This document shows positions 3,968 through 40,127 of a stretch of DNA of 40,603 nt, piece after piece (position 1 is the stretch's first letter; each line of letters starts with the position of its first letter). The position numbers and the translations under genes are program-made. The notes beneath the pieces were generated by a model that was not told the DNA's origin, did no database searches, and saw nothing but the letters and a program-made list of their open reading frames with translations. The stretch covers positions 1 to 40,603 of the forward strand of contig CAMOFI010000004.1 of the NCBI GenBank assembly GCA_946613135.1. The letters are read 5' to 3'. The stretch comes from an uncultured Bacteroidales bacterium. Lineage in GTDB: Bacteria; Bacteroidota; Bacteroidia; Bacteroidales; P3.

Positions 3968-4172
3968 CGGTTTGGTCATCGAAAAACGAGTGCAGACACG
4001 CTTTTACGCACTGGACTCCAACAAAGTAGATGTCAAAAGGGAACAATGTGAAATTCATTGACAGTCCCGCTGCTGTAAGTTCAGAACATGGCAGTCCTCC
4101 AAAAAGCCACTGTGTGCCGACACAGGCACATGGGAAGGTTAGGATTGCTCGAACAAAGTCAGAAGACCTGCC
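3968..4172 (+). ncRNA. Cobalamin (B12) riboswitch
   Basis: Conserved blocks in order: gggaacaatgtgaaattcattgacagtcccgctgctgtaag (B12 box region), agccactg, tgggaaggt, agtcagaagacctgcc; directly upstream of btuB. Confidence 0.9.
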
Positions 4173-4216
4173 ATACCACAAAAACAATTAAAGCTCTCGA
4201 GGAAAGGGCATTAATT

Positions 4217-6268
4217 ATGAAAACAAAAAAAACTGACAGATACATATTACATCTCCTTGTCGCCTGCTTATTGTGGGTGGCTTTTGTCGTACCAGCTTCT
4301 GCACAAGACACCAATGCCACCGACAAAAGCAAAAAACTGGAAACTATAGTTGTAAAAAGCAACAAGAAACCTTCAGCAACATTATCTCAAGCGCCCGTCC
4401 AGATTGTCGACATCGAGAAAATGGAGAATTCCGGTGCTTTGCTCCTAAGCGACGCACTGAAACAAATGGCCGGAGTGACACTGCGCGACTATGGCGGAAT
4501 TGGAGGCATGAAAACAGTCTCGGCACGTGGACTCGGCAGCCAATTCAGCACTTTAACCATTGACGGAGTGGCTGTTAACGACTGTCAAAACGGCCAGGTT
4601 GATCTGGGTCGCTACATGATAGGCAACAGCTCTTTCATAAGCCTCAGCAACGGCCAGCCCGACGACATGCTACTATCGGCACGCGCCACCGCCGCAGGCA
4701 GCGTCATCAACATGCAGACTTCCGAGCCTGTCTTCATGCCTGGAGAACACACACATACCGGAATCAGTCTTGAGACAGGAAGTTTTGGACTCTTATCCAC
4801 CGCCCTTTCGCTTCAACAACGCATCGGACGCAAGCTTTCAATATCTGCTTGGGGCAACTGGCTGAAAAGCAACGGCGACTACCCCTTCACTCTGTACTAC
4901 ACCCCATCGCACGACGGCGATTACTCCATCGAACGACGTGAGCACTCCTCCATGTGGATGGTCACTGGTGACATGAATCTTTTTTACCACATATCTTCCA
5001 ACAGGTCGCTTTCCTCCAAGATTCATTATGTTCAGGGCTACCACGACCTGCCTGGCCCCGTGGTGTTCTACGCCACGCGCGGCTCCGAAGACACACGTGA
5101 AAAACTATTCTTCGCACAAGCCAAATACAACTCGTTCATAAAACAAGCAAGTTTTCAGCTGATTGGGAAATATCAGCATACCGAAGATTTATATGAGGAC
5201 TTCTCCGCCCCTACCATAAGTCGCTACCTCAAGAACGAATATAGCCAAAACGAAGGATATCTCTCCGGCACTGTGGTTTGGAAACCTTATATAAAAATAA
5301 ATGCAAGTCTCGCCAGCGACCTATCACTCAACAATCTGCACAGCAACCTGAAGAAAAACAGCAACGTTGAACGTTTCTCATCACTCACAACGCTTGCATT
5401 GCAATACAAAACCAAGCGTTTCAGCTTCAAAAGCAACGCATTGTTCACTTTCGTCAACGAGAATGCCTGCGACAATCCATCCCCCACTACCTACAGACGG
5501 CTATCGCCCTACGTAGGCGCTTCCGTTCAACCCATAGCCTCGAGCAACATACGCATCCGCTTCTTCTTCAAAGACATATACCGAATCCCCAATTTCAGCG
5601 AACTGTACTATTTTGTTATGCCGCTCGACTCTCTCAGACCCGAACGGGCTTCGCAATACAATGTCGGAATAACTGTTCCGACCCAGATGCGCTACAACAG
5701 CGATTCCACAAGATGGCATGTGTGGAGCATGACCTTAGACGCCTACCGCAACAGCATCAAAGACAAGATTATCGCCGTTCCGAAACAGAACATGTTTCTT
5801 TGGTCGACAATGAACCTTGGCATTGTTGACATAACCGGTTTGGACCTAAAAGGGACCTTCGACTGGAATTGGCAGAAAGTCTCACTGAATGCAACTCTCA
5901 CATACAGCTATCAGAAAGCCGTCGACCATACAAATCCTGAAGTCACTAAGATTTACAATAACCAAATCCCCTACACACCGCGTCACAGCGGAGGCATGAC
6001 TCTCTACCTCAAAACTCGTTGGTTTAATTTCGGATACAACTGCATGCTCGTCGGCAAACGGTATTACAGACAACAAAACAACGACGATTCACTGCTTCCA
6101 CCCTACGCCGACCATGGAATCTCTATCGACCGCTCCTTTGAACTGCCCATCGGCGACCTGCGAATTCAATTCCAAATACTTAACATCCTCGACAAGCAAT
6201 ACGAAGTTGTACGCTCTTACCCGATGATGGGACGCAATTTCAGACTGAAAGCCAGCTATTCATTTTGA
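4217..6268 (+). CDS. btuB: BtuB-like TonB-dependent outer-membrane cobalamin receptor
   Basis: Signal peptide from internal Met (MKTKKTDRYILHLLVACLLWVAFVVPASAQ), plug domain (LLSDALKQMAGVTLRDYGGIGGMKTVSARGLGSQFSTLTIDGV), C-terminal barrel ending ...FRLKASYSF; downstream of B12 riboswitch. Confidence 0.9.
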   Translation: MKTKKTDRYILHLLVACLLWVAFVVPASAQDTNATDKSKKLETIVVKSNKKPSATLSQAPVQIVDIEKMENSGALLLSDALKQMAGVTLRDYGGIGGMKTVSARGLGSQFSTLTIDGVAVNDCQNGQVDLGRYMIGNSSFISLSNGQPDDMLLSARATAAGSVINMQTSEPVFMPGEHTHTGISLETGSFGLLSTALSLQQRIGRKLSISAWGNWLKSNGDYPFTLYYTPSHDGDYSIERREHSSMWMVTGDMNLFYHISSNRSLSSKIHYVQGYHDLPGPVVFYATRGSEDTREKLFFAQAKYNSFIKQASFQLIGKYQHTEDLYEDFSAPTISRYLKNEYSQNEGYLSGTVVWKPYIKINASLASDLSLNNLHSNLKKNSNVERFSSLTTLALQYKTKRFSFKSNALFTFVNENACDNPSPTTYRRLSPYVGASVQPIASSNIRIRFFFKDIYRIPNFSELYYFVMPLDSLRPERASQYNVGITVPTQMRYNSDSTRWHVWSMTLDAYRNSIKDKIIAVPKQNMFLWSTMNLGIVDITGLDLKGTFDWNWQKVSLNATLTYSYQKAVDHTNPEVTKIYNNQIPYTPRHSGGMTLYLKTRWFNFGYNCMLVGKRYYRQQNNDDSLLPPYADHGISIDRSFELPIGDLRIQFQILNILDKQYEVVRSYPMMGRNFRLKASYSF

Positions 6269-20984: not shown

Positions 20985-21188
20985 TTACAGGACCTTGCTG
21001 CATTCGGAATAGGTCGTGCCAAAATCCACCTGTTCCATCTGCACACATGTCTTGCCCTCTTCTTCAAGCTGAGCGATATCGAATTCGTCAGCATCTCCGT
21101 CATACCGGTAGCAGCGACATGTCTTGCCGCACGACACCACAAACAACATTGCAACAATAATCAGAATGTATATCTTTTTTGTTCTCAT
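20985..21188 (-). CDS. Small Cys-rich lipoprotein (member of 3-paralog set)
   Basis: 67 aa; lipobox LFVVSC|GKTCRCYRYDG, then KTC and SEC. Confidence 0.75.
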   Translation of the reverse strand: MRTKKIYILIIVAMLFVVSCGKTCRCYRYDGDADEFDIAQLEEEGKTCVQMEQVDFGTTYSECSKVL

Positions 21189-21449
21189 GAGACTGTCTAA
21201 TGGTAACCTCTAAAAAATCGTTTAATTATCTTCGTTGACATTTCTTTGACTCTGAAAAGCAAACAAGTTTTCTTTTCTCTCGCTTTGCGAAACGTTCGCG
21301 TTTTGCCTGGTACAAGCTCCTGTGGAGCGCGTAGAGGAGCCTGCGAGTGGGCTGCTAGTCCTCCTTCATAGTTTAATCAAATGTCGGACTAAATTCGTTC
21401 AATTCGCCGTTTTTTTAAATAATTATTAGAGGTGTCGTAATGAAAAAAC

Positions 21450-22580
21450 TTAATTCTTAATCCACTCACCTATCTCTTCTTCATCAATATTCCTATACGA
21501 ATACGTGGTCTCTATCGCACCGTCTTTCATCAGCAACACCAATGGGAACGAGCCTCGTGTGATTTTCAGAAACAGGTCCTTGTCTATTCGCATCTCTCTA
21601 AAGCGCATAGAATGCGATTTTTCGTAGAATGCCTCGTATTTCGTCTCGTCGGCAACTTTGGGGAATATGTAGACAATATTATCATGCGATGCTCCTGTTC
21701 GCTTCACTATCGTCGAAATCTTGTCTGCCGCCAAGCGGCAATAGCCGCACGCCGGACTGAAAAAAGCCACTACATGTTTGCCATTGTCCAAACCTGCATC
21801 CGACAGTCGGTCGACATCTTCCGACTCCGTCAGTTCTTCCTCTTCCTGCATAGCCTCGTCCTCCTCCACTCCATCTATCTGTTCAAGAAGCAGCTGTGAA
21901 TCAAAATATTCGCTATTGCTTTTATAAAACCAATTATCGGGAGGGGTCTGCACGAATACGGTAACTATAGGTATTAGCACAAGAGCAGTCGTCACATACC
22001 AACGTTTATAGAACTTGAACGATGCCAAAACCCCGACGCTCATCATGACCAGCATCATCACAAGAGCCAAACGGTCGAGAATATGCAACGAAAATATCAT
22101 ATAAACTGTTAGCAAGGCAGCCGTAATCACATAAACCACAACGACAAGCCACCAGCGCGGATACCACTCTTCTGAAGTGTATTTCATCACAAACAACAAC
22201 ACCAACACCAGCACCGCATTCTTGACTATCGACTGGATTGGATTGAAAGGCATCAACTCGCCGAAACAATGACAGCTATCGGTACGACCTATCAGTTGTG
22301 CATAGACAAGAAACACAATAAAACAGACAAGGAACAGCAATGTGGCCACCACGGTAAATCTGTGGTAACGATGTGATATCAGAGCAGTTCCAATTATCAA
22401 TTCGACTGCTATAAGCAATCTCGACAGGTAAAAGCAGGTCGTCAATGAGAAGAGTCCGAAACTGTACACATAAATCTCAAAAACATCTATGCTTACGAAT
22501 TTCGACACTGCCGAAAAAACAAAAAGCATGCCGACAAGTATCTTCAATACCGAGGCACTGATTCTTAACGTCTTTTCCAT
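21450..22580 (-). CDS. MauE/DoxX-like redox membrane protein fused to a C-terminal thioredoxin-like domain
   Basis: N-terminal TM bundle VGMLFVFSAVSKFVSIDVFEIYVYSFGL with TDSCHCFGELMPFNPIQSIVKNAVL; C-terminal FFSPACGYCRLAADKI (CxxC). Confidence 0.82.
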   Translation of the reverse strand: MEKTLRISASVLKILVGMLFVFSAVSKFVSIDVFEIYVYSFGLFSLTTCFYLSRLLIAVELIIGTALISHRYHRFTVVATLLFLVCFIVFLVYAQLIGRTDSCHCFGELMPFNPIQSIVKNAVLVLVLLFVMKYTSEEWYPRWWLVVVVYVITAALLTVYMIFSLHILDRLALVMMLVMMSVGVLASFKFYKRWYVTTALVLIPIVTVFVQTPPDNWFYKSNSEYFDSQLLLEQIDGVEEDEAMQEEEELTESEDVDRLSDAGLDNGKHVVAFFSPACGYCRLAADKISTIVKRTGASHDNIVYIFPKVADETKYEAFYEKSHSMRFREMRIDKDLFLKITRGSFPLVLLMKDGAIETTYSYRNIDEEEIGEWIKN

Positions 22581-22592
22581 CGGACGCTCAAA

Positions 22593-22886
22593 TTAAGGCA
22601 ATACACTGACCGTATCTACGTCAAGTTCGCTGCACTTCACTTTACGAACGGTATAAACGACAGGACCCGTATCTTTCGTCCTGAAAGTCATCTCGTAGAT
22701 ATGGTCACATTTCATGCTACGTTCCACATTGACGACGGCAGTATCGGCACGCGTCACGGTGTCAGCATTGATAACAATAGTGTAATTGTCACTTACACAA
22801 TGGCAATAACGGCTTTTCTTGCATGCCGCCACCGACAGTATAACAACAACTGCGGCAACAATGGCCAGAAGTCTTTTCTTGTTCAT
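22593..22886 (-). CDS. Small Cys-rich lipoprotein (member of 3-paralog set)
   Basis: 97 aa; ILSVAAC|KKSRYCHCVSDNY, later MKC and VKC; 12-bp gap to downstream MauE-Trx gene. Confidence 0.75.
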   Translation of the reverse strand: MNKKRLLAIVAAVVVILSVAACKKSRYCHCVSDNYTIVINADTVTRADTAVVNVERSMKCDHIYEMTFRTKDTGPVVYTVRKVKCSELDVDTVSVLP

Positions 22887-22897
22887 CTCTCGTTTAA

Positions 22898-23143
22898 TTA
22901 TTCGTTTTCATTCAAACCGAAATCATAATCCGTACAAAGCACCGAGTCGGTAACGTCGTGCGATGTGACCGAATGCAGATCGTATAGCACATAACGCAGC
23001 TGCTCGCATGACCCTTTGTCTATCTTTATAATTCGCTCGTATGACTCGCCGAGCACTGCACAATGACACTCTCGTTCCTTCGAGCACGATGCCATCGCAA
23101 GGAGCATTAATACCCCGACAGAGAATAAAACAATCTTCTTCAT
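22898..23143 (-). CDS. Small Cys-rich lipoprotein (member of 3-paralog set)
   Basis: MKKIVLFSVGVLMLLAMASC|SKERECHCAVLGE, later GSC and VLC; 11-bp gap to next lipoprotein; ORF can extend to 23158. Confidence 0.75.
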   Translation of the reverse strand: MKKIVLFSVGVLMLLAMASCSKERECHCAVLGESYERIIKIDKGSCEQLRYVLYDLHSVTSHDVTDSVLCTDYDFGLNENE

Positions 23144-23217
23144 TTTATTGATTATCATCTTTTTTCTCTAAAAAATATCATTATTCGACAATAGCTTGTT
23201 TACTACTGAATTCAAAA

Positions 23218-29177: not shown

Positions 29178-31862
29178 CTATCTAATTAGCACCACAGTCC
29201 CCTTCTGTACTATTTGGTCATACGGGTGGGTTATTTTATGGCATGATATGACATAAGTGTATACTCCCATAGGACATTTTTTCCCATTTTGGGCATTTCC
29301 GTCCCACGGTTTTTCGGGATCAAACGACTCGAACACCATCTGTCCTCTACGATCGTATATGATGATATGGTAGCGCTGCACATCGTTCATCTTGACCGCG
29401 AAGGTATTGTTCGTGCTCTCTTCGGGAGTGAATGCATTAGGTGCCCATACTGTTGTATGGTCTACGTATACGGTGATAGTAGTTGTGTCGAAACACATAT
29501 ACGGGTTGTACGCCCACAGACGCACCGATATCGAATCCACATCGTCAGGCACCATGTAGCTCACTCGCGGTTCCGTACGTTCCTCGCCATAGGGGAACTC
29601 CCACTTGCATGAAGTAGAATACTCGCTCAAATCGGTAAACACAGCCTCCATCTGACCCAACGACACAGTCTTGGGCGACACCTCGCCTCTTGCTATCGGC
29701 TGCGGCTCTACAGCCACAGTGGTGGACTTGGAATTGAAGCAGACTCCATTAGTGGCATTGACGGTATATACTGTCGTACTTGATGGGTTAACGATGATAT
29801 GGCTGTTGTTCTCCTGTCCTCCAAGCGAGGGGTCTGCCGGCTGGGCAGTCCAGTTGAAACTCTCTGCAGTGGTAGTGATTGTTATCTCTGCATTTTCGCC
29901 TCCACACACTCCTCCTCCATCGGTGATTGTAATATCAGGTATTGTGTCGACAACGATAAGGACCGAGTCTTTACCGTAGCACTCGGCTCCAGAGGTAAGG
30001 CCATAGATAACATACATCGTTGTGCTGTCAGGCACATAGGTGTGCGATGTCGCATCAACAAATGTCGCCTGATTGTCCCACGAGTATTTGTTGCTTCCCG
30101 ATGCGGTGATAATTGTCGACTGGCCTTCGCACACCCTCGTAGGCGAAGCAGCAACATGCACCTCAGGCAATTGTATGACTACAACATGCATTGAGTCTAT
30201 ATCCTCCCATATCTGGCCGTTCCATGTGATGTACGAATAGGAAGTATATGTTGCAGACTCTGTTGGATTGATGTATATTGTATCTGCATACATTTCAATA
30301 GGGTTAGGATTGCCCGACACGTACCACACACAGCTGTCGGCGCCACGCACGCCCAAAGTCAGAGGCTCGTCGGCACAAATCATTGTATCACTCGTAATAA
30401 AGGCAAAATTTCGTCTTACGCCTATCTGCATCGTGTCCGACCCATAATTGCCGCACGAGTCCTGTACCTCACACAACCAACGGGCATCCGGTGCCGTGCC
30501 TACAATAATCGATGCTGCATTGGGACGCTCTTGTCCGTTGGTCAGATTTCTCCATTTTATCGACCTGTTGGGCATACCTCCTGTGATTACCGAACGCAAC
30601 TCAATCTGGTTTGACATGTTCATCAGCGTGTCGCGTTCGATAGTGACTTCCAACGGGTCGGTATCAATTATGTTGAACGAAACCGAATCGGAACGAGGGC
30701 AGCCATTCTCTGCCGAAAGGACAAACTTTGCATATTCCACTCCGTCAACACCTTCGGATTCAACATCCATGTAAGGCTGGATTGTCAACAAGAAAGTGTC
30801 TGTGTTGGCTGGGAAAAAGACGTATGGGTTTACCATGGCAAAATCGACACCGTTGGTGGCGGTGCCTTCAAAATCAATATTGATACGTGTAGGCGTCGAC
30901 AGTTGGTGAGGACGACTCATCTTGATGGTTGCCACACATCCCTCATAAAGGTCGCTGGGCATACCTGGGTTGGCGGCATTGACGAAATTAAAATCGATTG
31001 CATTCGAACTCAAGCTGTTGGCTTCAAGAAAAACACCTGAATCATAATCGTTATCACCCAAATCGGCTATGGCCATCTTCAGATGGTAGGTCTGGCAAGG
31101 AATAACCTTGGCCTCGGCAGTAAGTACGGTTGTAAAACCACCATACGTAATCATCGTGCTACCAGAGTTGTTGACATAATACTGCGTATTGTTCAGAAGG
31201 CACGGCGTTGCAGTCCCTGCAGCAACACCGCCATTGACATTGTTGATCGATATGATATTATTACTATTGGGGATCAACGCTATATTTTTGGCACTGTACA
31301 TACCGCCATTAGGATTAATTCCCGTAAGAAAGAATCCAAAGATGTCATTATAGTCCGAGCATACAAAACCAGGATATTCTTCCGATGCAAAAACATATCT
31401 GAACTTGATAGAGTCCGAAAGAGGGACAAAGTCAAATTCAAGCACGGCACAGTCATTAACGGCGGTATTTCCTGCATAGTTCATCAATTCGGCACATGAA
31501 TAGTTGGTTCCTGCCGAGGAACTATGAGTAGCTGAACTCTCTTGACCAACAGCATACGACACCGCTCCAGTTCCAATGATTATACCCTCAGTTATGCCGA
31601 GATTAGTAGAAGTAGCGCCAGTAGAAAAACGCCCAATCGCATTACTGGCAACAGCTCCCGTAGAACCATTAAAACGCACGTTGGACACCGTGACACCTTG
31701 ACCAACCAATACGTTCTGCACCAACGAGTCGATTGTCCATCCCGCCGGCAAGGACAAGCCTTGCGTGACTTGCAACTGTGCCGACACTTCTCTGATGCCA
31801 AACAACATAAAAAGTACGACCATTATTGGCGCCGTATACCTAAACATGCTACGTGTATTCAT
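29178..31862 (-). CDS. Choice-of-anchor L-type secreted protein with T9SS type B (gliding-motility-associated) C-terminal sorting domain
   Basis: Signal peptide; N-terminal GITEGIIIGTGAVSYAVGQ...FVFASEEYP-like block (FRYVFASEEYPGFVCSDYNDIFGFFL); C-terminal VWAPNAFTPEESTNNTFAVKMNDVQRYHIIIYDRRGQMVFES...PWDGNAQNGKKCPMGVYTYVI. Confidence 0.9.
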   Translation of the reverse strand: MNTRSMFRYTAPIMVVLFMLFGIREVSAQLQVTQGLSLPAGWTIDSLVQNVLVGQGVTVSNVRFNGSTGAVASNAIGRFSTGATSTNLGITEGIIIGTGAVSYAVGQESSATHSSSAGTNYSCAELMNYAGNTAVNDCAVLEFDFVPLSDSIKFRYVFASEEYPGFVCSDYNDIFGFFLTGINPNGGMYSAKNIALIPNSNNIISINNVNGGVAAGTATPCLLNNTQYYVNNSGSTMITYGGFTTVLTAEAKVIPCQTYHLKMAIADLGDNDYDSGVFLEANSLSSNAIDFNFVNAANPGMPSDLYEGCVATIKMSRPHQLSTPTRINIDFEGTATNGVDFAMVNPYVFFPANTDTFLLTIQPYMDVESEGVDGVEYAKFVLSAENGCPRSDSVSFNIIDTDPLEVTIERDTLMNMSNQIELRSVITGGMPNRSIKWRNLTNGQERPNAASIIVGTAPDARWLCEVQDSCGNYGSDTMQIGVRRNFAFITSDTMICADEPLTLGVRGADSCVWYVSGNPNPIEMYADTIYINPTESATYTSYSYITWNGQIWEDIDSMHVVVIQLPEVHVAASPTRVCEGQSTIITASGSNKYSWDNQATFVDATSHTYVPDSTTMYVIYGLTSGAECYGKDSVLIVVDTIPDITITDGGGVCGGENAEITITTTAESFNWTAQPADPSLGGQENNSHIIVNPSSTTVYTVNATNGVCFNSKSTTVAVEPQPIARGEVSPKTVSLGQMEAVFTDLSEYSTSCKWEFPYGEERTEPRVSYMVPDDVDSISVRLWAYNPYMCFDTTTITVYVDHTTVWAPNAFTPEESTNNTFAVKMNDVQRYHIIIYDRRGQMVFESFDPEKPWDGNAQNGKKCPMGVYTYVISCHKITHPYDQIVQKGTVVLIR

Positions 31863-38684: not shown

Positions 38685-40127
38685 ATGAAACACCCGAAAC
38701 TAATCCTATTCTTTTGTCTCTGTCTTGCCACCACAGGAATGCAGACTGCCATGGCCGCCTCGCCGAAAAAGAAAACGCCATACAAAGGCTATCGCTTCTC
38801 ACTCTTCATCTATGGAAACACGGACAGCATCATGTATCTGGGCAACTACTACGCCGGCGGCACCTACGCTTTCGACACCGCACGCATCTCTCCCAAAGGC
38901 ATGTTTGTGTTCGAAGACAAAGAGCGTGAGCTCAAACCAGGTCTCTACTTCTTCACTAATCCATCGGGCAACTATGTCGAGTTCGCCGTATACGGCAACG
39001 AAAAACTCAATTTCCACTTTGACACTGAAGAACCGGGGTGGCAGAACAACATGCACGTGAAAGGTTCGAAAGAAAACGAGCTGCTGTTCAGATACCACCA
39101 GATAAACCGCCGCATATACAAGACTATCGATTCTGTAAAGAGTTTCATGACCGACAGCAACGAATTTGAAGCCTTCCGCAGGAAACAGTTAGCCCGTATG
39201 GACAGCCTCAAGATGTCAATCATCGAGAGCAACCCGAACAGCCTGCTTTCGCTCCTGATGAATGCCACTCGCGAACCCGCAGTCCCTACCGAAGACACCA
39301 ACGGAAACAAACTCAGCTCCTTCCAACGGTGGGAATACTACATGGACCACTATTTCGACTACTCTCGGCTTGACGACGACGCTCTTATACGCACTCCCGA
39401 CATGATCTTCCACAAACGGCTCAACTACTATCTCGACGTATGCCTCAAAAACGCCCCGTCCGAAACCATCATAAAATATGTGGACAAACTCATCGACAAA
39501 GCACGCCCCTCAAAAGAGAACTTCCGATACCTTGTACACACCATAGCCGAGAAATATCTGCAAAGCAATATCATGAGCTACGACGCCATTTACGTACACA
39601 TGGTAAACAAATACATTGCATCGGGCGACTGCTTCTGGATGTCGCCGACAACCATAGACAACAACGTGAAACGTGCCGAGATTTGGGAAAAACTGCTACT
39701 CGGCAAACCAGCTCCCCCACTGATTATGCGCGACGACAAAGGACAGGTGCAAAGCCTCTACAACCTCAACCACAAATACACCCTGCTGGTTTTCTGGTCT
39801 CCGACATGCGGACACTGCAAGACTGCAATACCCGAACTGTACCAGCGCTTTGCTCAATACCGCGACAAATACGATATCGCAGCATATGCCATTCTGAGCG
39901 AGCCCGACGACCACACCAGACCCCTTTGGCATGAGTTCATCAAAAACCACAACCTCGATTGGATTAACATCGATGGCGGAGAAGCCAATATCGACTGGCA
40001 CGAAGTGTACGACGTGGAAACCACGCCTCAAATATACCTCCTCGACAAAGACAAGAAAATCCTTGCGAAAAAACTCAGCGCCAACACCTTCGAAGAAGTT
40101 CTCAGAGCCATCGAACACATTGAATAA
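38685..40127 (+). CDS. TlpA-like thioredoxin-fold protein with DUF4369/DUF5106-like N-terminal region
   Basis: Signal peptide; C-terminal LLVFWSPTCGHCKTAIPELYQRF (CxxC). Confidence 0.85.
   Translation: MKHPKLILFFCLCLATTGMQTAMAASPKKKTPYKGYRFSLFIYGNTDSIMYLGNYYAGGTYAFDTARISPKGMFVFEDKERELKPGLYFFTNPSGNYVEFAVYGNEKLNFHFDTEEPGWQNNMHVKGSKENELLFRYHQINRRIYKTIDSVKSFMTDSNEFEAFRRKQLARMDSLKMSIIESNPNSLLSLLMNATREPAVPTEDTNGNKLSSFQRWEYYMDHYFDYSRLDDDALIRTPDMIFHKRLNYYLDVCLKNAPSETIIKYVDKLIDKARPSKENFRYLVHTIAEKYLQSNIMSYDAIYVHMVNKYIASGDCFWMSPTTIDNNVKRAEIWEKLLLGKPAPPLIMRDDKGQVQSLYNLNHKYTLLVFWSPTCGHCKTAIPELYQRFAQYRDKYDIAAYAILSEPDDHTRPLWHEFIKNHNLDWINIDGGEANIDWHEVYDVETTPQIYLLDKDKKILAKKLSANTFEEVLRAIEHIE

Follow-up and report, generated by a model that had tools for sequence, protein, structure and literature searches.

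The window analyzed here, a 40,603-nucleotide stretch from an uncultured gut Bacteroidales bacterium (genome assembly of 1.74 Mb, 75% complete), carries on its minus strand four neighboring open reading frames whose sequences and coordinates are exactly those given in the original prediction. The first two encode the short lipoproteins LpA (22898-23158, minus strand; 86 aa, mature form C-SKERECHC...C...C) and LpB (22593-22886, minus strand; 97 aa, mature form C-KKSRYCHC...C...C). They are followed by a fusion of a MauE domain and a thioredoxin domain (MauE-Trx; 21450-22580, minus strand; 376 aa, with seven predicted transmembrane helices) and, further downstream, by the lipoprotein LpC (20985-21188, minus strand; 67 aa, mature form C-GKTCRC...C...C). 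The cysteine layout proposed as common to the three lipoproteins is indeed present in each, with CxC, C, and C coming after an SPII-type lipobox. The tight spacing claimed for the first three genes was likewise borne out, with measured gaps of 11 bp between LpA and LpB and 12 bp between LpB and MauE-Trx. Among named relatives, the sheep-rectum Bacteroidales bacterium RGIG6229 is closest, with a MauE-Trx that is 69% identical.

LpC had been described as lying apart, just downstream of the enzyme gene. Its position is as described, with a spacing of 261 bp, and the correction concerns the cause of this separation: the spacer holds an inserted, MITE-like dispersed repeat of 228 bp (21206-21433, no strand assigned) with the ends ACCTCTAA...TTAGAGGT. 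The repeat possesses imperfect terminal inverted repeats, and 31 matches to the MauE-LpC spacer were found in the genome, several of them at contig ends; the element looks like a MITE-type insertion. In the nearest relative (locus L003), LpC and the end of mauE-trx share four bases (ATGA). An insertion of this type between mauE-trx and LpC suggests that the separate position of LpC is recent and local. A structured RNA in the spacer was rejected as an explanation, as no Rfam match was found there. Elsewhere in the window, the plus strand carries a cobalamin riboswitch (Rfam RF00174, 78 bits) at 3995-4189, next to the ORF at 4088-6268, and the protein encoded at 29178-31862 contains a CHU_C type IX secretion signal domain.

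A family of small CxC lipoproteins

LpA, LpB, and LpC belong to one family: when each of them was used on its own to start an iterated profile, with the signal peptide included, the searches converged on equally large sets (199 ORFs in 70 loci), and a profile built from the mature parts only still recovered all three. The family pattern consists of the lipidated cysteine followed by CxC, C, and C. Exactly five cysteines were found in 217 of the 220 members (80/81 LpA, 82/84 LpB, and 55/55 LpC), leaving four non-lipidated ones in these 217. The lipidated cysteine and the two CxC cysteines never vary in mature LpA, LpB, or LpC, and each of the two later cysteines is kept in at least 98% of them. 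Where dS was unsaturated, dN/dS was approximately 0.02-0.14 for LpA and 0.03-0.07 for LpB, so that both genes are under purifying selection. LpA is moreover about as conserved as MauE-Trx, which together with the purifying selection ruled out a fast-evolving toxin or antigen.

Searches of LpA, LpB, and LpC against Pfam and NCBIfam returned no model at its cut-off, and searches against PADLOC and PDB sequences returned no match; the lack of a PADLOC match ruled out a defence system. The sole PHROGs match was a weak one of LpB to phrog_542 (E 0.0027), a family annotated as of unknown function, and at curated cut-offs none of the three lipoproteins falls into a described family of Pfam, NCBIfam, PADLOC, PHROGs, or the PDB. 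Lipoprotein carriers comprise 116 of the 120 genomes of the genus and 61 of the 62 near-complete ones. Judged by these searches, the CxC lipoproteins appear to be an uncatalogued family that is present almost genus-wide. Mature LpA was modeled by AlphaFold2 as a four-stranded structure (mean pLDDT 84.8), for which Foldseek retrieved nothing below E = 2 from the PDB.

In Bacteroidota, lipoproteins are exported to the surface by virtue of a K-(D/E)2 motif or an acidic cluster after position Cys+1 (PMC5080379). By this definition, a K/Q-(D/E)2 signal was found in none of the 220 lipoproteins, in which the charge at positions +2 to +6 is mostly positive. Surface exposure was ruled out on this basis, and the lack of a surface-export signal indicates that the lipoproteins probably face the periplasm.

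The MauE-thioredoxin fusion

The membrane protein belongs to the MauE family (PF07291), with a score of 66.5 bits against a Pfam gathering cut-off of 27. The AlphaFold2 model (mean pLDDT 94.4) displayed seven membrane helices, a CxC pair (C103/C105) in the TM3-TM4 loop, and a C-terminal thioredoxin domain with a CGYC motif (C278/C281) and a cis-proline (Pro346); both the loop and the domain are predicted to be periplasmic. Two of the helices are extra ones, present in 25 of the 89 homologs, while most homologs are of a five-helix form. Given that both five and seven are odd numbers, the thioredoxin domain and the C-x-C loop would lie on the same side of the membrane in either form. Residues K27, E60, C103, C105, G107, K120, N121, C278, C281, and P346 are invariant across the 89 homologs, K27 and E60 being membrane residues.

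The original prediction of a C-terminal CGYC thioredoxin domain gained structural backing. The Pfam Thioredoxin model scored only 15.8 bits, under its cut-off of 23.5, whereas the modeled fold, the CxxC motif, and the cis-proline together place the domain in the thioredoxin fold, with C278, C281, and P346 invariant. Its Foldseek matches (E <= 1e-3) included a secreted Mycobacterium oxidoreductase, Bacteroides oxidoreductases, ResA, TlpA, and DsbF-type proteins. Within C-x-x-C, 78 of the 89 homologs have Tyr or Phe as the second of the two variable residues. Another thioredoxin-like domain of the TlpA type is found in the window at the C-terminus of a DUF4369/DUF5106 protein (38685-40127).

The CHC motif that had been noted in the membrane protein is present, with the correction that it corresponds to the MauE-family C-x-C-[FLM]-G. 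The C-x-C-x-G element after TM3 (C103, C105, and G107) is invariant in the 89 homologs, and a separate MauE paralog in the same genome (L002, G000:C104), for which no lipoprotein neighbor was detected, carries SDCGCFG; beyond these proteins, we presume the element to be a trait of the MauE family as a whole. On sequence grounds, the CHC of MauE-Trx is thus best regarded as a MauE-family motif and no copy of that of the lipoproteins, and the common CHC was rejected as a sign of kinship between them. No match of MauE-Trx to VKOR (PF07884) or DsbB (PF02600) was found, and its score of 54.2 bits against a cut-off of 250 places it outside the BT_3928 family (NF045576).

CxC is a common metal-ligand motif, and two of the Foldseek matches of the thioredoxin domain, 4txo and 4txv, are mixed-disulfide complexes of TlpA. 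Both observations would suit lipoproteins that carry copper, zinc, or an iron-sulfur cluster, with MauE-Trx keeping the ligand cysteines reduced for metal loading, the role that TlpA plays toward Sco and cytochrome oxidase subunit II. We consider such metal carriers very unlikely, since no His or Met ligands are conserved next to the lipoprotein cysteines, neither a metal transporter nor a cuproprotein was noticed among the neighboring genes, and the LpA fold has no significant match in the PDB.

Linkage, distribution, and unlinked paralogs

Across the family, 60 of 90 loci around MauE-Trx displayed the arrangement LpA-LpB-MauE-Trx-LpC, with two lipoproteins upstream and one downstream, and a further 21 displayed LpA-LpB-MauE-Trx with no downstream lipoprotein. 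Six had no lipoprotein, two of these being overlapping stretches of one locus. Stop and start codons of the operon genes frequently overlap, with 3-bp overlaps being common. In the order-wide sample, lipoprotein matches were found in 18 of 395 Bacteroidales genomes and MauE-Trx (taken as present at E <= 1e-14, counted by hand) in 43, and all 18 fall within these 43. The six lipoprotein-positive genomes that gave no seed all have MauE-Trx (hypergeometric p ~2e-7, uncorrected for phylogeny). In a 399-genome sample of the phylum, the lipoprotein profile matched only the window's own genome. The lipoprotein and MauE-Trx set, as traced by profile matches, thus recurs across the genus and the family and is sparser in the order. 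The profile check that had been suggested was run with a positive outcome, in that a mature-lipoprotein profile recurs beside MauE-Trx across Bacteroidales with an invariant cysteine pattern.

The genes might merely be neighbors, with the lipoproteins playing a role unrelated to redox chemistry; indeed, the surrounding FtsK/O-methyltransferase/flippase context is also largely conserved within the genus. We regard such fortuitous synteny as highly improbable, as the adjacency persists in other families and at loci with different flanks, the genome-level co-occurrence is 18 out of 18, and the cysteines are invariant in both the enzyme and the lipoproteins. The distance matrix of each lipoprotein correlates with that of the enzyme (Mantel r 0.73-0.80), a correlation largely expected from common phylogeny alone.

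Linkage is nevertheless not strict. All 150 genus matches among those listed lie within 2.5 kb of MauE-Trx, a figure biased by a profile seeded from operon members, whereas an LpC-type profile placed 94 of 140 genus matches far from the operon and 8 at ~7-9 kb from it. With this LpC-type profile, at least one distant copy was found in 48 of 63 genomes. The window's own genome carries, unlinked on another contig (G000:C31:14647-15212), a tandem pair of CxC lipoproteins (L160 and L161), and two incomplete genomes (G010 and G053) have lipoprotein matches and no MauE-Trx match at 1e-20. The many unlinked paralogs suggest that MauE-Trx probably acts in trans on a wider set of lipoproteins. The simplest reading of these distributions would make the operon a hub that reaches beyond its own trio, in which the enzyme has several clients and some are encoded next to it. 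Outside the family, no lipoprotein was detected near most of the sampled MauE-Trx genes, which implies other roles or other clients there.

Three further arrangements were observed. Four CxC lipoproteins form a tandem array distant from MauE-Trx (L152, G269:C1). In a single case, an LpC-type lipoprotein of a relative lies ~900 bp from a DsbD_TM match (L164, G101:C1:111370). Finally, a same-genus MauE-Trx with no detected lipoproteins (L059/L092, G009:C245) is preceded by a 358-aa ORF that, by eye, is radical SAM-like.

Proposed disulfide module and known systems

The original prediction that the lipoproteins are substrates or redox partners of MauE-Trx is well supported as far as association goes (18/18 genomes), whereas the client relation is what we infer, as are the chemistry with its direction and the electron acceptor. 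Among ten members of the genus, DsbB (PF02600) and VKOR (PF07884) were found in none and DsbD_TM in all ten; a reductive arm is present in these ten genomes, and a classical oxidase was not found. Given this combination, MauE-Trx is a candidate to fill the oxidative role. We somewhat favor a periplasmic disulfide module, in which MauE-Trx is an oxidoreductase, most likely in oxidation or isomerization, and the lipoproteins are its clients.

In this model, MauE-Trx would act as an inner-membrane thiol-disulfide oxidoreductase whose MauE core uses the C-x-C of the periplasmic TM3-TM4 loop for disulfide exchange with its fused thioredoxin domain (C-x-[YF]-C). The thioredoxin domain would in turn act on the small lipoproteins, each of which has four cysteines (CxC, C, and C) besides the lipidated one, and these dedicated clients would gain two disulfides or have their disulfides shuffled. 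The four non-lipidated cysteines and the lack of an export signal would fit periplasmic clients with two disulfides. The LpA, LpB, and LpC copies of the operon would be produced in step with the enzyme, the unlinked paralogs would be served in trans, and the electrons would be handed on by the MauE core, perhaps to quinone.

The isomerases/reductases DsbC and DsbG likewise use C-G-Y-C and C-P-Y-C as active sites. With such an active site, and with the reductive ResA and TlpA beside DsbF among the fold matches, the reaction may run in either direction. Electrons might instead flow reductively, with MauE-Trx drawing them from the membrane or cytoplasm and keeping or repairing reduced lipoprotein cysteines for roles as reductants or peroxide scavengers. 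The folds nearest to that of the thioredoxin domain are of the ResA/TlpA type, of which many are reductive, and strictly anaerobic hosts would presumably tolerate exposed thiols. We nonetheless hold reductive flow to be unlikely, albeit a contender, because a DsbD homolog already provides the reductive arm in 10/10 genomes, neither DsbB nor VKOR is present for oxidation, and the even count of free cysteines suits disulfides.

To our knowledge, envelope disulfide formation in anaerobic Bacteroidales that lack DsbB and VKOR is poorly understood, and the MauE-Trx system may represent an undescribed route to disulfides in bacteria without the two standard oxidases. A bolder and rather improbable extension is that MauE-Trx would be the missing general disulfide oxidase of these anaerobes, adding a third class to DsbB and VKOR, and that the CxC lipoproteins would be no passive substrates but membrane-anchored disulfide carriers that collect oxidizing equivalents at the inner membrane and relay them to envelope proteins. 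The operon names a specific candidate enzyme together with small, easily assayed candidate clients encoded alongside it, making the question of disulfide formation in such Bacteroidales directly testable. In the incomplete library that was searched, we found no paper linking MauE to such lipoproteins and none on Bacteroides disulfide formation with VKOR.

Among known systems, VKOR-thioredoxin fusions and DsbB-DsbA also pass disulfides from a membrane cysteine pair to a thioredoxin-fold partner. The likeness is one of functional analogy only, as MauE-Trx has no VKOR or DsbB homology and its probable lipoprotein clients are encoded in the operon. The BT_3928 family (NF045576) likewise combines a MauE domain with C-x-C-F-G. 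In methylamine dehydrogenase maturation, MauE (PF07291) and MauD similarly pair a MauE domain with a thioredoxin-like partner, and MauE was speculated to form disulfides in the small cysteine-rich dehydrogenase subunit, according to PMC7794033, which cites van der Palen 1997. Here, in contrast, the enzyme and thioredoxin are fused, the proposed clients are small lipoproteins and no dehydrogenase subunit, and no mau genes were seen around the locus. Lastly, candidate RiPP clusters of Streptomyces (decRiPPter, PMC7794033) also place MauE genes beside short predicted precursor peptides; these are actinobacterial predicted peptides and not lipoproteins, and MauD, if present, is a separate gene.
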